Positions 6,365 to 22,613 of a stretch of 22,933 bases of DNA are shown piece by piece (the first letter of the stretch is position 1; every line of letters begins with the position of its first letter). This stretch comes from a virus, in IMG/VR virus record IMGVR_UViG_3300030329_001682, positions 1 through 22,933 of that record, one strand, 5' to 3'. Position numbers and translations under genes: made by a program. Under the pieces are notes generated by a model. That model searched no databases. It was not told where the DNA came from and saw only the letters and a list, made by a program, of their open reading frames with translations.

Positions 6365-6630
6365 ACGAAGGCAAATTGCGCCAGGAAGTAGAGCGCGGCA
6401 ATAAAGCCGAACAGCTGCTGAAAAACGAAATATTTACAGAGACTTTTGACGTGTTGCACCAGCGCTACATCGATGAGCTTGTGTCCACCAAGTCCGATGA
6501 AAGCGAGAAGCGCGAGCGTTTGTATAATGCCGTCACTGCATTGCAGCACGTCAAAGCACATATCGAGTCGGTTGCAACGACCGGCACGATGGCTGCGCAA
6601 CAGATAAATGAAATGTTTAAGCGCAGATGA
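6361..6630 (+). CDS. Small helical phage protein between portal and scaffold
   Basis: 89 residues, charged and predicted almost entirely helical (EGKLRQEVERGNKAEQLL; SEKRERLYNAVTALQHVKAHIES). It overlaps the portal gene by four bases (ATGA), typical of coupled expression. Small helical proteins of this size, with a (D/E)ER.RLY-type segment, are regularly found between portal and scaffold genes in podovirus-like phages. Their role is not known to me. No catalytic motif, membrane segment or signal peptide is visible. It could be an assembly cofactor; that is inference from position only. Confidence 0.8.
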   Translation: MNEGKLRQEVERGNKAEQLLKNEIFTETFDVLHQRYIDELVSTKSDESEKRERLYNAVTALQHVKAHIESVATTGTMAAQQINEMFKRR

Positions 6631-6674
6631 CCAAGCCTACGGGCAGTCCTTGCAACCAAACTGGAGAATAAATT

Positions 6675-7703
6675 ATGGCGGAAGCAATCCCTGATACTGG
6701 GCCTTCCCTTTTAAGTACGGCTGATGCCGTCGAAGAACTTCTCAGCCGAAACGCCCCCACAGAAGAGGATACGGCGCAAAGCGAGGAGACAACTGTTGAG
6801 GAACCGCAAGAGGATTCAACAGAGTTAGAAGCCGACGCCGACGATGAGGCAGAAGCGACCGAAACAGAAGATGCGGAAGAGGAGGACATCGATGACGATG
6901 AACCCGAACTGGAAGCAGCGCCTGTTGAGGTAGAAGAACCCGCACCACCAACCTATCGCGTGTCCACACCGGACGGCGAAGTTGATGTGAGCGTAGACGA
7001 ATTAAAAAGTTCGTATATGCGTCAGGCGGATTACACTCGCAAGACTCAACAAGTCGCGGAAGATCGTAAAACAGTCGAAAGTGAACTTGAGTATGTGCAG
7101 GGCGAGCGAGCACGCTACGCCCAGGGGCTGGAAGAATTGGAGCAAGCCTTAACACAAACGGAACCGGACCAAGCATACTGGGATGGCCTCTATAAGCAGA
7201 ACCCTCTGGAGTACACACGACAGAAGGATTTGATGCGCGACCGGAAGGAAGCACTAGAGAAAGTCCAGGGTGAAAAGCAGCGTGTCCAGATGGAGCAGGC
7301 GCAGCAGTATCAAAAGCAGGCGCGTGACCATATGGAACAACAGCGTGCGCTTTTGCCCGAAATAATCCCAGAATGGCGTGACGCAACTGTCGCGCAAAAC
7401 GAGAAAAAGGAAATCTTTACGCACGCGACCAAGTACGGATTCTCTGAACAGGAGTTGAATAACATATCGGACAGCCGCGCCGTTGCGGTGTTACGCAAGG
7501 CGTATTTGTTCGATGCCTTAATGGAGAAAAAACCGGCAGTGCAGAAGAAAACCAAACAGGCTCCGAAGATGGCAAGGCCAGGCCAACCAAAGTCCAAGCG
7601 CCAAGTCTCTCAAAAGCGAAAGCGTCAGTCTCTCGCTAACGTATCTAAAAACAGTCGCGGCAAGAGCATCGACGCAGCCGTCGATTACTTGCTGCAAAAA
7701 TAG
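6675..7703 (+). CDS. Head scaffolding protein
   Basis: 342 residues with the classic scaffold layout. The N-terminal region is very acidic (residues about 25-95, long Glu/Asp runs), the central part is a coiled coil (residues about 115-240, with QKDLMRDRKEALEKVQGEKQ) and the C-terminus is basic and helical (residues about 280-342, KSKRQVSQKRKRQSLANVSK). In P22-like phages the basic C-terminal helices bind coat protein and direct procapsid assembly. Its location directly before the major capsid gene fits this role. GGAG at 6663-6666 lies nine bases before the ATG. No protease motif was seen, so the scaffold is probably released rather than cleaved by a partner encoded here. Confidence 0.9.
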   Translation: MAEAIPDTGPSLLSTADAVEELLSRNAPTEEDTAQSEETTVEEPQEDSTELEADADDEAEATETEDAEEEDIDDDEPELEAAPVEVEEPAPPTYRVSTPDGEVDVSVDELKSSYMRQADYTRKTQQVAEDRKTVESELEYVQGERARYAQGLEELEQALTQTEPDQAYWDGLYKQNPLEYTRQKDLMRDRKEALEKVQGEKQRVQMEQAQQYQKQARDHMEQQRALLPEIIPEWRDATVAQNEKKEIFTHATKYGFSEQELNNISDSRAVAVLRKAYLFDALMEKKPAVQKKTKQAPKMARPGQPKSKRQVSQKRKRQSLANVSKNSRGKSIDAAVDYLLQK

Positions 7704-7718
7704 AAAGGGGGTGCCGTT

Positions 7719-8927
7719 ATGGCAACCTATACAACAGCGAACGCTATTGGCGAAAGGGAGGATTTGGTTGATGTAATTACTCGCATCGATCCAGATGAAA
7801 CACCACTTTTCTCTAATGCGAAACTGGAAACCACAAAAGGTGTTTTCCATGAATGGCAAGTGCAAGAATTGGCCGCAGCTAATTCGGGCAATGCAGTTAA
7901 CGAAGGCATCGACTTCAGTTATGTCAACCCGACCGCAACTACCCGCCTCGGGAACTTAGTGATAGGCTCCCCCACAGTACATTAGTGCTGCGGAAAAAAT
8001 AATCGGGTGAATTGCTGGGAAGCCCAGAAGTGGGTAATCAGCAGCCAAGCCAGTGAAGGACAAAAGTATCTGGAAGGTTCAACGACTAGGCAGTGAGTAG
8101 TCCAAACGATAATCTGCCCAAGAGCGCCCGACACGAAAGTGATGATATAGTCTGGTCTATCGATAACTTGAAATAAAGCGATAGAAGCAAATCATAAACA
8201 GGTTTGCGATAACAAAAACGATCACCAAATAGCTGTTAACGCCGCGAGCGTCAGTGGCACTTTGGATAGTGTTGACAAGGCAGGCCGTGACAAGGAAACG
8301 GCGTATGTGAAAGTTCTTAAAGGGCTGGAGCAACGTCGTGACATTGAAAAGGGCCTGGGTGCTAACGAAGCTCGCAATGCTTCCGACACCCGTAAAGCCG
8401 GTAAAATTATGAGCTACATGACGAACCAAAGCGTGGTTTCGCCATCTACAACACCGACCGGCGATGGCACTAATGTATCGGATTTGGCAGGCACCAATGC
8501 TGCGCTGACCCTAGCCAAGATCGATACAGCCATGCAATTGGCATACACCGATGGGGGCCAGCCGGACATAATGGTCCTGTCACCTACCAACAAGGTCAAC
8601 TTCAGTGACCTGAACAGTGGAAGCGCTGTAACTAATCAGTTGCATATGACTTCCCCAAAAGAAGCAACGATTATTGGATCAGTTTCCATGTATCTTACGG
8701 ATTTTGGAATGTTGAATGTAACGATTGACCGCTTCACAGAAGACGACCGCATTTTCCTGATGGATAGTAACTACTATTCTATCGGGCATCTGCCTGGTCG
8801 GATGTTTAGTGTCCAAGATGTAGCACCTACTGGGGATGCGACCAAATTTGCTATCCTGAGTGAGTGGACCTACATACCGAAGGCGCCGAAAGCGCACGCT
8901 ATCGTCGCTGACCTGAACGGGTCGTAA
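7719..8927 (+). CDS. Major capsid protein, split by a group I intron (join 7719-7956 with 8221-8927)
   Basis: Joining 7719-7956 to 8221-8927 gives 945 bases and a 314-residue protein of the DUF5309-like phage coat family (HK97-type fold assumed from the family). Exon 1 encodes 79 residues (MATYTTANAIGEREDLVDVI ... TTRLGN). Tyr80 is formed across the junction (T plus AT). Exon 2 continues HQIAVNAASVSGTLDSVDKAGR, then KETAYVKVLKGLEQRRDIEK, LSPTNKVNFSDL and GHLPGRMFSVQDVAPTGD. The joined sequence RLGNYHQI restores the continuous coat sequence expected. Without splicing, translation would run nine codons into the intron and stop at 7985, giving an 88-residue fragment. A strong ribosome binding site (AGGGGG) precedes the ATG. 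A hairpin terminator follows the stop. High expression is expected. Confidence 0.92.
7957..8220 (+). ncRNA. Group I self-splicing intron (subgroup IA-like), 264 nt, no ORF
   Basis: The 5' exon ends in U (7956) and the intron ends in G (8220), as group I splicing requires. P1 pairs GGGAACU (7950-7956) with GGCUCCC (7965-7971), with a U·G at the splice site and one A-C mismatch. P10 pairs GUGAU (7959-7963) with the first five exon-2 bases AUCAC (8221-8225). Other helices read by eye: P2 7975-7980/7985-7990; P3 8003-8009/8125-8131; P4 8012-8017/8039-8044; P5 8023-8026/8031-8034; P7 GACUA 8084-8088/UAGUC 8148-8152; P7.1 8089-8093/8114-8118; P8 8132-8134/8139-8141 with a GAAA loop; P9 8156-8162/8179-8185; and a distal hairpin 8187-8191/8203-8207. 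The core strings UUCAACGACUA and GAUGAUAUAGUC are typical of IA introns such as those of phage T4. P6 was not modelled with confidence. There is no room for a homing endonuclease. Confidence 0.93.
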
Positions 8928-8941
8928 AACACAAATGGGGA

Positions 8942-8963
8942 GGGCGGCGAAAGCCGCCCTTTT
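8942..8963 (+). terminator. Rho-independent terminator after the capsid gene
   Basis: GGGCGGC (8942-8948), loop GAAA (8949-8952) and GCCGCCC (8953-8959) form a perfect seven-base-pair GC stem with a stable tetraloop, followed by TTTT (8960-8963). It lies 14 bases after the capsid stop codon. It probably ends or reduces transcription between the capsid gene and the next block, which is common after the most highly expressed structural gene. Confidence 0.88.
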
Positions 8964-8981: not shown

Positions 8982-9269
8982 ATGGAATGGGCAATAATGA
9001 CATTTGGCGCGAAGTTCTGCTGTATAGGAGCTTCCGGCGTCGGCGGTCTAGCCAATTGGGCCGTTAAGAAGTCCATAAGCTGGAGAGATTTAATTCTAGC
9101 GATACTCGTAGGCTGGGCGGCAGCAGAGTTTTTCATTCCACCAATAATGAAACACTGGCAACTTGATGTTACCTGGGGGCCAGCCATAGCTTTTATGATT
9201 GGCTTTTGCGGGATCAGGCTACTGCCGGTGATCGAGCAGGCCATCACAAGCAAGGTTAAAGGTAGCTAG
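8982..9269 (+). CDS. Small three-helix membrane protein, holin-like
   Basis: 95 residues with three hydrophobic segments: about residues 7-27 (FGAKFCCIGASGVGGLANWAV), 36-55 (LILAILVGWAAAEFFIPP) and 66-90 (GPAIAFMIGFCGIRLLPVIE). The third segment ends in a short Lys-rich tail (SKVKGS). Size, three-helix topology and the GPAIAF.IGF.G-like last helix resemble phage holin-type membrane proteins. It is not in the lysis cassette but directly after the capsid terminator and before two DUF2589-type genes. The ATG at 8982 follows GGGG at 8970-8973. The stop overlaps the next start (TAGTG). It could instead be a membrane partner of the DUF2589 proteins. The membrane assignment is firm; the holin role is a guess. 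Confidence 0.75.
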   Translation: MEWAIMTFGAKFCCIGASGVGGLANWAVKKSISWRDLILAILVGWAAAEFFIPPIMKHWQLDVTWGPAIAFMIGFCGIRLLPVIEQAITSKVKGS

Positions 9270-9709
9270 TGGCGTCGTTCTCTTTGAGCGCCATGTTTGG
9301 CGCAGTGCATGAGGCCATTGTTCATGCAGCCCAGGACGTTGAACAGTCCGCGTGGGAAACATTAAAAGAGCGATATTTTATAGAAACCGGCGACGGCAGT
9401 TTCACGCCGAAGACCATAAGAATTAAATTGCCGCACGCGGAAAACGGCAAGGTTACCCAGTCGCCTGTAGATGTGCCGCTGTTTTCGCTGAGCAAGCACG
9501 GCTCGCTGGTGATCGATGAACTTAATATGAAGTTCGACGTTGATCTCAGGGGGCTGGATAAAAAAGAAAAACACCTGGTTGGCTCTCTGCCCAGAAAGTT
9601 TTTAAGCCGCAAGGCAACCGCCAAAGTAGAGATCAGATTTAAGGGCGCCGAAGCAAGCGAAGGCGTCATGTTAATTAACGATAAAATTCACCAGACTTTT
9701 CCACGATAG
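9269..9709 (+). CDS. DUF2589-like protein, short form
   Basis: 146 residues starting at a GTG that overlaps the upstream stop codon (TAGTG). The segment DVPLFSLSKHGSLVIDELNMKFDVDL (residues about 68-93), together with KATAKVEIRFKG and EASEGVMLINDKI near the end, parallels the core of the next protein (EVPILAIVNTPSLCIKETEVKFTMSV ... PPEGLMKVLDML). I therefore read it as a shorter, diverged relative of the same DUF2589 family. It lacks the Ser/Asn-rich HGSIATHSSNTRKSDNSAKY region. The function of the family is unknown. No signal peptide is present. It lies in a coupled block with the membrane protein before it. Confidence 0.6.
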   Translation: MASFSLSAMFGAVHEAIVHAAQDVEQSAWETLKERYFIETGDGSFTPKTIRIKLPHAENGKVTQSPVDVPLFSLSKHGSLVIDELNMKFDVDLRGLDKKEKHLVGSLPRKFLSRKATAKVEIRFKGAEASEGVMLINDKIHQTFPR

Positions 9710-9718
9710 GAGATAGAG

Positions 9719-10324
9719 ATGTCGGACGAATTGGTAAAAATGAGCGGACAGTTCAGTGGCCTCCCAATGAAGGATTTAATTGGTGGGCCGCTTCAAGCAT
9801 CGTGCGATGCGCAGACTTTGCTTGCCACTGCCACTTACAAGTTTATCAGAGAGGTTGGTTTGACCGGCAAGGACGCGGATACCAAAGCGCTCACTGTTGA
9901 CTTTTCTTTTGACCGCCCTGGAGCACCGGACCCCGCGACAGGCAAGTCCGACATGGAAACAGTCAAGCTGGAAGTGCCAATTCTCGCCATAGTGAACACG
10001 CCAAGTCTCTGCATAAAGGAAACAGAGGTTAAGTTTACTATGTCGGTCGCATCGAGCAGCGTGGATCAAAACTCAAAAGACAAGGAAGGCGACGTGACCG
10101 CCGAAGCCAAGTTTGGCTGGGGGCCGTTCTCTGCCAAGGTCAATGTGCATGGATCGATTGCCACGCACTCTTCCAACACGAGGAAGTCGGACAACTCAGC
10201 AAAATATGACGTGAAGGTTCTAGCCAGGGACGACGGGCCACCGGAAGGACTAATGAAAGTGCTCGATATGTTGCAAACAGCAATTGCGCCTGTGCCTTTG
10301 CCTGCTCCAGCGAAAGGGAACTAG
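9719..10324 (+). CDS. DUF2589 family protein
   Basis: 201 residues. It matches the remembered DUF2589 pattern: an N-terminal FSGLPMKDLIGGPLQASCDAQ (residues 12-32), then LTVDFSFDRPG, a core LEVPILAIVNTPSLCIKETEVKF (residues 84-106), GSIATHSSNTRKSDNSAKYDV (145-165) and PPEGLMKVLDML (174-185). The family is of unknown function and is better known from bacterial genomes than from phage head modules. It starts at ATG 9719 after GGAG at 9708-9711. It is followed without a gap by the next gene (TAG then ATG at 10325). The pairing with a shorter relative just upstream suggests that the two form a complex; this is inference. Confidence 0.75.
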   Translation: MSDELVKMSGQFSGLPMKDLIGGPLQASCDAQTLLATATYKFIREVGLTGKDADTKALTVDFSFDRPGAPDPATGKSDMETVKLEVPILAIVNTPSLCIKETEVKFTMSVASSSVDQNSKDKEGDVTAEAKFGWGPFSAKVNVHGSIATHSSNTRKSDNSAKYDVKVLARDDGPPEGLMKVLDMLQTAIAPVPLPAPAKGN

Positions 10325-10645
10325 ATGAAAAAACTTTTAAGCAAAGACCCCATCCTCAAAAAGAAGACGTACTTCACGCATGAGGTGGGGGAGCACGGCA
10401 TTGTCACGGAGCAGGATGTCAGTCCGGTGCTGGATCAGGCGAAGCAAAAAGAGTCACTCTGGCGTCCAGGCCAGATGATTGGCAACACGCAAAGGCATCA
10501 GCAGAAGGTCGCGGAAATACCGACTGCGGTGTACTTCGATCTGTTGAAGAAATACGGCCAGCCGAAAAACAATCCAAAGCCGTGGAAGAAATGGCTGAAC
10601 GATCCTGACAACAAATACTTTAGAACAACCGGCGGAAATGTGTGA
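10325..10645 (+). CDS. Conserved small phage protein preceding the adaptor
   Basis: 106 residues, basic. The pattern TYFTHEVGEHGIVTEQDVSPVLDQAK ... AEIPTAVYFDLLKKYG ... WLNDPDNKYFRTTGG matches a small protein family that I recall as widespread in podovirus-like and other tailed phages, usually between capsid and connector genes. The most conserved part is the ending, W-L-N-D-P-D-N-x-x-F-R-T. Its function is not established; a role in head maturation or connector assembly is suggested by position alone. The ATG directly follows the upstream stop and the stop overlaps the next ATG (TGATG, 10643-10647). Confidence 0.8.
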   Translation: MKKLLSKDPILKKKTYFTHEVGEHGIVTEQDVSPVLDQAKQKESLWRPGQMIGNTQRHQQKVAEIPTAVYFDLLKKYGQPKNNPKPWKKWLNDPDNKYFRTTGGNV

Positions 10646-11277
10646 TGGCGATATCAACCTATGCAGAACTGAAAACGGCAGTCGATAACTGGCTGGCCCG
10701 AACAGATTTGACCAGCCGCGTGCCGGAGTTCATTTCCTTGGCGGAAGCGCGTATGTCCCGCGAGATCGAGGCATTGAGCCGCGACAAGCGCATCACTGCG
10801 ACTTTGGTCGCCGACGACGAATACGTTTCCCTACCCACCGACGTGCGGAAGATTAGACACGTCCGTTTGAACACGAACCCGATAACTATTTTGCGCTACC
10901 TGACGCCCCAGGCAATTGACCGCGAATATCCATCGACCGGCACAGGCAAGCCAAGGGTTTATTCTGTTATCGGTTCTGAGATTTATTTTCGCCCTGCACC
11001 AGATTCAGGATACACGGCGGAGATTTTATACAATGCGGGGATGGATTTGCTGACCAGCGACTCGCAGACGACCACATTACTGACACGGCACCCCGATTTA
11101 TATTTGCACGGCGCTCTTAGTGAGGCGTATGGCTTTTTGCTTGATGAGCAACGCCAAGTTCATCACGACACAATTTTCACGCGGGTTCTGAATGAAGTGC
11201 AAATGGAAGAGGACCGCGTCCATTACGGCGGCTCGCCGCTTACTCTACAATCTGACTATGGAGAACTAAGAACATGA
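10645..11277 (+). CDS. Head-to-tail adaptor (SU10 adaptor / P22 gp4-like)
   Basis: 210 residues from ATG 10645, which overlaps the upstream stop; a GTG three bases earlier is less likely. The N-terminus ISTYAELKTAVDNWLAR, followed by FISLAEARMSREIE, is the usual start of podoviral adaptor proteins that bind the underside of the portal. A beta-rich middle (YVSLPTDVRKIRHVRL; PRVYSVIGSEIYFRPAPDSGYTAEI) and the final helices (HPDLYLHGALSEAYGFL) also fit. In such phages twelve copies extend the portal channel and hold the nozzle. The overlap with the next gene is four bases (ATGA at 11274). Confidence 0.87.
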   Translation: MAISTYAELKTAVDNWLARTDLTSRVPEFISLAEARMSREIEALSRDKRITATLVADDEYVSLPTDVRKIRHVRLNTNPITILRYLTPQAIDREYPSTGTGKPRVYSVIGSEIYFRPAPDSGYTAEILYNAGMDLLTSDSQTTTLLTRHPDLYLHGALSEAYGFLLDEQRQVHHDTIFTRVLNEVQMEEDRVHYGGSPLTLQSDYGELRT

Positions 11278-21841: not shown

Positions 21842-22065
21842 CATTCTTAAAACTGCTGAGTGGCCTCGTCGGCTTATTTAAAACGCTGGCGGGGCTGGTT
21901 AGAGATGAGAAGTTAATGAAGGCGGGAGAGGACCGATATGCAGGCAAGCAGCAAACACAGCGCATGGATATCATTCGGAAAGCTCACGCCGCTCGCCGCG
22001 CTATGGTTCATTCCGATGATGACGGGGTGCCTGGGGATCGGTTCAACCGCGACAATAACGGATAG
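21838..22065 (+). CDS. Inner-membrane spanin (i-spanin, Rz-like)
   Basis: 75 residues from ATG 21838, overlapping the upstream stop. An N-terminal hydrophobic/amphipathic segment (FLKLLSGLVGLFKTLAGLV) acts as anchor. It is followed by a helical, charged region (KLMKAGEDRYAGKQQTQRMDIIRKAHAARRAM) and the tail DDDGVPGDRFNRDNN. The pattern ARRAV..D.......D.(Y/F)NRD is typical of short Rz-like proteins of phages of Gram-negative hosts. The outer-membrane partner starts within this gene in another frame. Together they join inner and outer membrane to finish lysis. Confidence 0.8.
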   Translation: MTFLKLLSGLVGLFKTLAGLVRDEKLMKAGEDRYAGKQQTQRMDIIRKAHAARRAMVHSDDDGVPGDRFNRDNNG

Positions 22066-22186
22066 CGGCTGCGTGATATTTCAGCCGATATTTTATAGCG
22101 AAAGCCAAGATTCAACAGAAACTGTGCAACAGATCCGCGCACATAATAACGTATGGGTAACAACTTGCGATGCTCCCTCTGACTAA
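21938..22186 (+). CDS. Outer-membrane lipoprotein spanin (o-spanin, Rz1-like), nested in the i-spanin gene
   Basis: 82 residues starting inside the i-spanin gene in a different frame and running 121 bases beyond its end. GGGAGAGGA just upstream of ATG 21938 is a good ribosome binding site. The N-terminal signal (LTPLAALWFIPMMTGC) ends in a lipobox with Cys31 as the lipidated residue. The mature part (SGCVIFQPIFYSESQDSTETVQQIRAHNNVWVTTC) has the P-I ... D-T ... Q-I-x-x-H-N pattern I know from small phage o-spanins. The embedded arrangement is typical of lambda-like and P2-like lysis modules. It overlaps the endolysin start by 17 bases. Confidence 0.87.
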   Translation: MQASSKHSAWISFGKLTPLAALWFIPMMTGCLGIGSTATITDSGCVIFQPIFYSESQDSTETVQQIRAHNNVWVTTCDAPSD

Positions 22187-22613
22187 GATTTTTGATAGTT
22201 TAAAAATGGAGGAGGGCTTTCGCGCTAATCCATACAAATGCACGGCCAATCGCCTCACTATCGGCTACGGGAGAAATCTCGATGACATGGGCCTCAGTGA
22301 ACCGGAGGCCACATACCTGCTCGTCAACGACGTAAACCGTTGCGTGCTGGAATTAAAAAAAGCCTTCGATTGGTACGCCGATTTGAACCCAGAATTGCAG
22401 GCCGTGCTTGTCGAATTGAACTTCTGGCTGGGCCTTACAAGATTGAGGGGATTCAAAAAATGTCTGGCCGCAATGAAAGCCGGCAATAGGCCGGAGGCGG
22501 CAGCAGAGTTGCTTAGCTCGCGGCTGTACCGCCAAGTGCCAGGTCGATGCCAGCGTTATGCAGACCGTATCAAGGGAGATGATCAAAATGGCAGCAAAAC
22601 CGCTCGACGATGA
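22170..22613 (+). CDS. Endolysin, T4-type lysozyme (GH24)
   Basis: 147 residues, close to T4 lysozyme (164). The enzyme cleaves the glycan strands of peptidoglycan. The catalytic motif E-G-F-R-A-N-P-Y-K-C-T-A-N-R-L-T-I-G-Y-G gives Glu15, Cys24 and Thr30, with the same spacing as Glu11, Asp20 and Thr26 of T4. The Asp is replaced by Cys, a variant found in other GH24 phage lysozymes. LNFWLGLTRLRGFKKCLAAMKAG and YRQVPGRCQRYADRI fit the C-terminal lobe. There is no signal peptide, so release depends on a holin. The start lies within the o-spanin gene. The end overlaps the next gene by about 26 bases. Confidence 0.92.
   Translation: MLPLTKIFDSLKMEEGFRANPYKCTANRLTIGYGRNLDDMGLSEPEATYLLVNDVNRCVLELKKAFDWYADLNPELQAVLVELNFWLGLTRLRGFKKCLAAMKAGNRPEAAAELLSSRLYRQVPGRCQRYADRIKGDDQNGSKTARR

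Follow-up and report, generated by a model that had tools for sequence, protein, structure and literature searches.

The question raised by this locus is why a gene for a small membrane protein and two genes for proteins of the family DUF2589 (PF11655) are located between the capsid gene and the connector genes of a phage, and what their products might do there. The window, by which the whole stretch of DNA analysed is meant, is a virus record of 22,933 bases and of the SU10 type, with Pfam matches for the portal (PF23899, E 5e-215), the capsid (PF17236, E 1.3e-39) and the adaptor (Table 1). No function is known for DUF2589, to our knowledge an orphan family. The number PF11655 was not found in the openly licensed literature of PubMed Central, in which a single paper names DUF2589: the available text of PMC3949148 mentions it in passing, for the up-regulated short genes AF0414–AF0417 of Archaeoglobus.

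Table 1. Positions of the inserted genes, their flanks and the lysis genes in the window.
Feature	Position	Strand	Basis or remark
Terminator-like hairpin and T run 3' of the capsid gene	8943..8963 (approx.)	+	by eye
MEM, holin-like membrane protein, 95 aa	8982..9269	+	phrog_2359 holin, E 8.8e-7; three hydrophobic segments
A, first DUF2589 protein, 146 aa, GTG start	9269..9709	+	PF11655, E 2.8e-15
B, second DUF2589 protein, 201 aa	9719..10324	+	PF11655, E 1.8e-40; predicted amphipathic beta-hairpin, about residues 124-147
p106	10325..10645	+	phrog_3982; small protein normal here in SU10-type phages; outside the cassette
SU10-type adaptor (flank)	10642..11277	+	PF24175, E 5.5e-33
Rz-like spanin of the phage	21938-22186	+	distant from the cassette
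Endolysin of the phage	22170-22613	+	distant from the cassette

The insertion site and its three genes

The three reading frames exist as the preliminary description had placed them, at 8982–10324 between capsid and connector genes. With the adaptor as query 11 candidate stretches were obtained and no relative was confirmed, and the portal was used instead. The 80 portal relatives fetched have identities of 42–79%, and 36 of them show both the capsid and the adaptor gene; the contig of the closest one (L212, 79%) does not reach this site. In all 36 p106 lies between the two genes, in agreement with the expectation that a small protein and the adaptor should follow the capsid directly, and in none does the interval contain DUF2589. 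The triplet is thus not standard in close relatives, and no DUF2589 protein or relative of MEM was detected anywhere in the 80 stretches. The window is like the SU10-type podoviruses in its portal, capsid, p106 and adaptor families but differs from these 36 in having two DUF2589 genes at the site, and also from a further SU10-type contig, L198, which was found via the MEM search and has the membrane gene alone, in the order scaffold-capsid-MEM-p106-adaptor without DUF2589. Many SU10-type relatives (L234–L290) carry an unrelated gene of about 217–234 aa between p106 and the adaptor, indicating that the interval from capsid to adaptor varies.

The capsid gene of the window contains a group I intron at 7969–8174 (RF00028, 70.4 bits, E 2.9e-16), which probably extends from about 7956 to 8240, the splice sites being approximate; the capsid is encoded from 7719 to about 7956 and again, in the same frame, from near 8245. 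The hairpin downstream of this gene (GGGCGGC-GAAA-GCCGCCC-TTTT) was read by eye and is absent from the output of the hairpin scanner.

Both DUF2589 assignments held in the HMM search that had been proposed: A scores 57.4 bits over profile positions 2–153 of 154 and B 139.3 bits over positions 1–153, the curated cut-off being 23 bits, and both were recovered again as DUF2589 in a genome-level search. The coupled starts are likewise present, since the TAG stop of MEM shares one base with the GTG start of A, the gap between A and B is 9 bp and includes a GGAGA stretch, and the end of B abuts the ATG of the next gene at 10325. Between the window and L003, a viral contig with the same triplet, dN/dS of MEM is 0.02, and for A and B pN is 0.17–0.18 with a saturated pS of about 0.9; this purifying selection indicates that the triplet is more than chance. 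Recent import was looked for by base composition and gave no signal, the GC content of the cassette being 0.49–0.52 and that of the window 0.524. Saturated synonymous sites, conserved proteins and a window-like composition suggest that the acquisition of the triplet looks old and that its genes are under selection. Neither A, B nor MEM has a match in NCBIfam, there is no convincing PHROG family match for A or B, phmmer against PDB sequences gave 0 hits for A and 0 for B, and PADLOC, which covers anti-phage defence, gave 0 families for each of the four proteins searched.

MEM was rightly described as a three-helix membrane protein in so far as its 95 residues contain three hydrophobic stretches, with peaks of 19-residue hydropathy that begin at residues 5, 37 and 66. 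It matches the holins of PHROG 2359 over residues 10–90, and resembles them in this profile match, in size and in the three segments, and also in that relatives of MEM occur in lysis neighbourhoods: the relative in L209 adjoins an endolysin gene (phrog_894, 1.8e-29) with a holin gene (phrog_3427) further on, that in L188 is one gene from a holin gene, and that in L167 is one gene from an endolysin gene (phrog_465, 3e-48). It differs in its position in the window, outside the lysis cassette (spanin and endolysin, 21938–22613) and 11.6 kb from these recognised lysis genes, and in its start-stop overlap with a DUF2589 gene. Relatives of MEM were found in 57 viral loci, with A and B in only one (the L003 contig), although several of the other 56 contigs end too early to judge; the pair conversely occurs without MEM in 79 of 80 viral loci. 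A protein search of the annotated phage collection gave no relative of MEM and none of A. Judged by these neighbourhoods, MEM is an independent gene of the lysis type, with a putative hole-forming product, that joined the pair at least once.

In AlphaFold2 models A (21 sequences, pLDDT 72) and B (25 sequences, mean pLDDT 58) have the same order of elements, namely an N-terminal helix, a four-strand core and a C-terminal helix, and neither protein has a clear membrane segment. The B model is poor, with pLDDT below 50 over residues 112–159, and its extra hairpin falls in this region of lowest confidence. All 29 sequences compared have strong amphipathicity in the strands of this hairpin (mean z against shuffled sequences 2.98 and 2.81), a feature that hairpins of soluble beta proteins commonly show as well. 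Foldseek found no match at E <= 0.001 for A or B among solved structures, or for A among viral models. A second look with VIA gave Z of at most 3.9 for B (flagellar rod and hook proteins) and 2.8 for A, which we treat as no evidence.

Distribution and mobility of the pair in viruses

The triplet constitutes the sole genes that L003 has in common with the window. Identities are 92% for MEM, 74% for A and 75% for B, and at the DNA level a single block of 70% identity joins window positions 8982–10270 to L003 positions 6459–7743, beginning at the first base of MEM and stopping near the end of B. The pair is located between a head-protein gene and a connector-like gene in L003. The suggestion that the genes are an acquired moron is supported by this exact block, shared with an unrelated contig, together with the absence of the triplet from the sites of all 36 relatives.

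With B as query, IMG/VR yielded 144 candidate stretches; a relative is encoded in 140, and 80 were kept; ORF calls in the loci are mechanical. A and B are on one strand, with A upstream, in 77 of the 80, and in the other three (L017, L025 and L050) B starts at most 161 bases from the contig end and A is off the contig. In this survey of genome neighbourhoods, which had been recommended, the full MEM-A-B triplet was found elsewhere only in L003, and the earlier view of one unit stands for A-B and only weakly for MEM, whose loci include the pair in 1 of 57 cases. The gap between A and B is 6–23 bases in 67 of the 77 loci, and 279–783 bases with an inserted ORF in ten. These ORFs are of several kinds and of about 85–248 aa (L011, L015, L022, L031, L047, L060, L061, L062, L065 and L078), nine of the ten loci were scanned against Rfam with no match, and the A-B junction seems to be a place where insertions occur.

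Grouping the 80 loci by at least two shared other genes gives 8 backgrounds (of 67, 4 and 4 loci, and five singles), and by one shared gene 5. In the largest group, with 67 loci, the pair follows RecE-/RecT-like genes and points against the lysis genes, indicating that it is probably not co-expressed with them there. Phage_lysozyme is encoded a few hundred bases downstream of the pair in one phage locus, L009. In L012, L018 and L037 a very long ORF ends ahead of the pair (2,512 aa in L018, where the locus edge truncates it), and a reversed gene follows the pair; the copy of this gene in L012 has a match to a moron-class PHROG.

The tree of 29 B proteins places the eleven phage ones, from the window and ten loci, in one clade (96/97), with the window and L003 as sisters (99/97). 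This clade and the 140 of 144 IMG/VR stretches suggest that the source of the pair need not be a bacterial chromosome, and the statement that DUF2589 is known mainly from bacterial chromosomes was incomplete. Among annotated phages a relative of B was found in 1 of 50,697 records (35% identity, unannotated), so that work on isolated phages would miss it; the plasmid collection has relatives of B in 5 records.

Bacterial relatives and neighbouring wall hydrolases

In the sample of bacterial genomes, DUF2589 was found in 9 of 398 genomes of Pseudomonadota (the phylum of G001, a Vibrio), in 10 of 150 of the family of G001, and in 2 of 200 and 2 of 78 genomes of two orders. All 22 genomes or records checked via fetched loci have at least two matches, while G036 and G576 have a single one each. 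The order is mostly A-B, with B-A in L093, L098, L100 and L101. Phage and bacterial members both belong to DUF2589, A and B being above the cut-off over the whole profile, but the phage ones form a separate clade and are without a third gene seen in many bacteria, for a protein of about 90–120 aa after or between the DUF2589 genes (L083–L092, L096, L098, L144 and L146). The L083 copy of this small protein has no match in Pfam or NCBIfam, and the gene had no match at E <= 10 among the ORFs of the window and 217 viral loci. By eye, a Vibrio/Marinomonas variant has, in place of that small protein, a zinc-ribbon-like protein of about 64–105 aa after the pair (L145, L147, L149, L151, L150, L153 and L120), followed in several loci by a lipoprotein-like gene, and the distant bacteria of L115 and L120 share a wider neighbourhood with methyltransferase-like and substrate-binding/permease-like genes. 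Tandem A-B-B copies were likewise seen by eye in L150 and L153.

When 31 bacterial loci were scanned with 13 hydrolase queries, peptidoglycan hydrolases were found in 11, ten of them within 2.1 kb of the pair, nine of these ten on its strand, and one at 5.2 kb, with none in the other 20 loci; the scan is partly circular, as 7 of the 11 matches are query proteins and the new ones are those of L089, L093, L115 and L118. Six families are represented, namely GH24, GH19, Amidase_3, M15, Pesticin and Muramidase. Pfam confirms Phage_lysozyme in L117, Amidase_3 in L112, GH19 in L114, Pesticin in L087 and Muramidase in L090, and PHROG an endolysin in L116 (phrog_465, E 1.3e-25), which we take to be of the M15 type. 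In 25 DUF2589-bearing genomes, Phage_lysozyme is within 5 kb of the pair in 2 of 14 cases (G352 and G487; 0.036 expected) and GH19 in 2 of 26 (G181 and G188; 0.063 expected). The joint Poisson P of 4e-6 is optimistic because the two families were picked after L114 (G181) and L117 (G352) were known, and L153 (G487) had already been spotted by eye, so that only G188 is new; each near match remains rare by chance. An origin of this link in prophages was considered and is argued against by the terminases, since none of 17 matches, from 12 of the 25 genomes, is near the pair, indicating that the hydrolase-linked bacterial loci are not plain prophages. Among the matches listed there is no integrase within 30 kb of the pair.

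Two known systems can be compared. The R-body (reb) loci are alike in that RebB is encoded near some pairs, the distance being 1–2 kb in two Vibrio, roughly 7 kb in Marinomonas MED121 and roughly 17 kb in V. penaeicida (L088, L089, L119 and L120), but they differ from the phage loci, RebB being found in 0 of four phage records searched (the window is not among these). Nine proteins of the window, compared with Pfam, gave no RebB match either. A general link with R-bodies was rejected, as the 9 DUF2589 and 10 RebB genomes among the 398 Pseudomonadota have zero overlap. The term 'DUF' is absent from the main text, as available, of the R-body papers PMC3583457, PMC8322103 and PMC13430693. Type 10 secretion systems are, according to the available text of PMC13284979 and PMC9527704, phage-derived holin/endolysin release cassettes in bacteria. 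The bacterial DUF2589 loci resemble them in that uncharacterized, cytoplasmic-looking proteins are paired, outside prophages, with wall hydrolases of phage type, but no DUF2589 is seen in what is available of these two papers. In terms of this cassette, the window has a holin-like gene without an adjacent hydrolase gene, and 10 of the 31 bacterial loci have a hydrolase gene at most 2.1 kb from the pair, with no holin or cargo identified in the bacterial loci.

A tentative function and its alternatives

From the observed gene company, gene order, mobility and selection, the reading we prefer, with a probability of about 0.4, is that A and B are a mobile and obligatory pair that would act at the cell envelope beside wall breakdown, as an accessory lysis-type module. 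The pair and a holin-family membrane gene would have been inserted between the capsid and the p106-adaptor genes of this phage. A and B, soluble and with no signal peptides, would assemble late in infection into a hetero-oligomer, the holin-like protein or the regular holin of the phage would open the inner membrane and let them reach the envelope by an endolysin-like route, and there they may help to disrupt or cross it, perhaps via the amphipathic beta-hairpin of B. We infer the complex, its entry via a holin lesion and its action on the envelope; the module would be accessory because the phage encodes its own endolysin and spanin. A host-envelope function had been among the first suggestions and is the one that the gene company favours: MEM matches holins and has relatives near lysis genes (L209, L188 and L167), hydrolases of six families are found in 11 of 31 bacterial loci with a genome-wide excess of two of them, these loci are not plain prophages, L009 has Phage_lysozyme just downstream of the pair, and A and B have the same topology, are always together in phages and are without a clear membrane segment. 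Against this stand the 11.6 kb to the recognised lysis genes of the window, the 67 of 80 loci with the pair after RecE-/RecT-like genes and directed against the lysis genes, the 20 of 31 bacterial loci without a hydrolase and the post hoc choice of the two families counted genome-wide, the separate occurrence of MEM (56 of 57 loci) and the pair (79 of 80), and the lack of a fold match for any activity together with the poor B model. A bolder form, which we regard as doubtful, is that A and B constitute a previously unrecognised two-component envelope-breaching system of phages and bacteria, soluble relatives forming a membrane- or wall-spanning complex with the hairpin of B inserted and any hydrolase as partner; such free partnering would explain the six unrelated hydrolase families alongside.

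Among the rival readings, an unlikely one is a moron for host takeover, superinfection exclusion or counter-defence, to which sites near lysis genes would be permissive insertion spots. Mobility between unrelated phages, the position after RecE/RecT-like genes and outside the lysis operon in 67 of 80 loci, and the gene of a moron or host-takeover class PHROG beside the pair in L012 and its relatives agree with it, but none of the four proteins has a PADLOC match, and the link with several families of wall hydrolases in non-prophage bacterial loci is left unexplained. The RebB genes near the pair in Vibrio, Marinomonas MED121 and V. penaeicida, the tandem A-B-B copies and the helix-sheet-helix model of B, weakly like flagellar rod proteins (Z at most 3.9), would fit a self-assembling body or filament, cytoplasmic or envelope-spanning, in which A and B polymerize, a hydrolase serves passage or release and, in bacteria, R-body genes are sometimes linked. 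This is improbable, given that RebB is missing from the four phage records and does not overlap with DUF2589 in the 398 genomes, and that Z values under 8 mean little by the tool's own note. Least probable is a virion component among the head genes, as a decoration, internal or ejection protein, which is what the site between capsid and adaptor in the window and between head-protein and connector-like genes in L003 would suggest; the 36 SU10-type relatives share these head genes but lack A and B, the largest background has them with RecE/RecT-like genes, the family is also found in bacteria without phage genes, and no evidence was found for the decoration system that had been proposed.

If the link of the envelope-acting pair to wall hydrolysis is true, it would give DUF2589 a first testable role, and the family would include an accessory device for lysis or for crossing the envelope, passed among unrelated phages and also in use in bacteria outside prophages.
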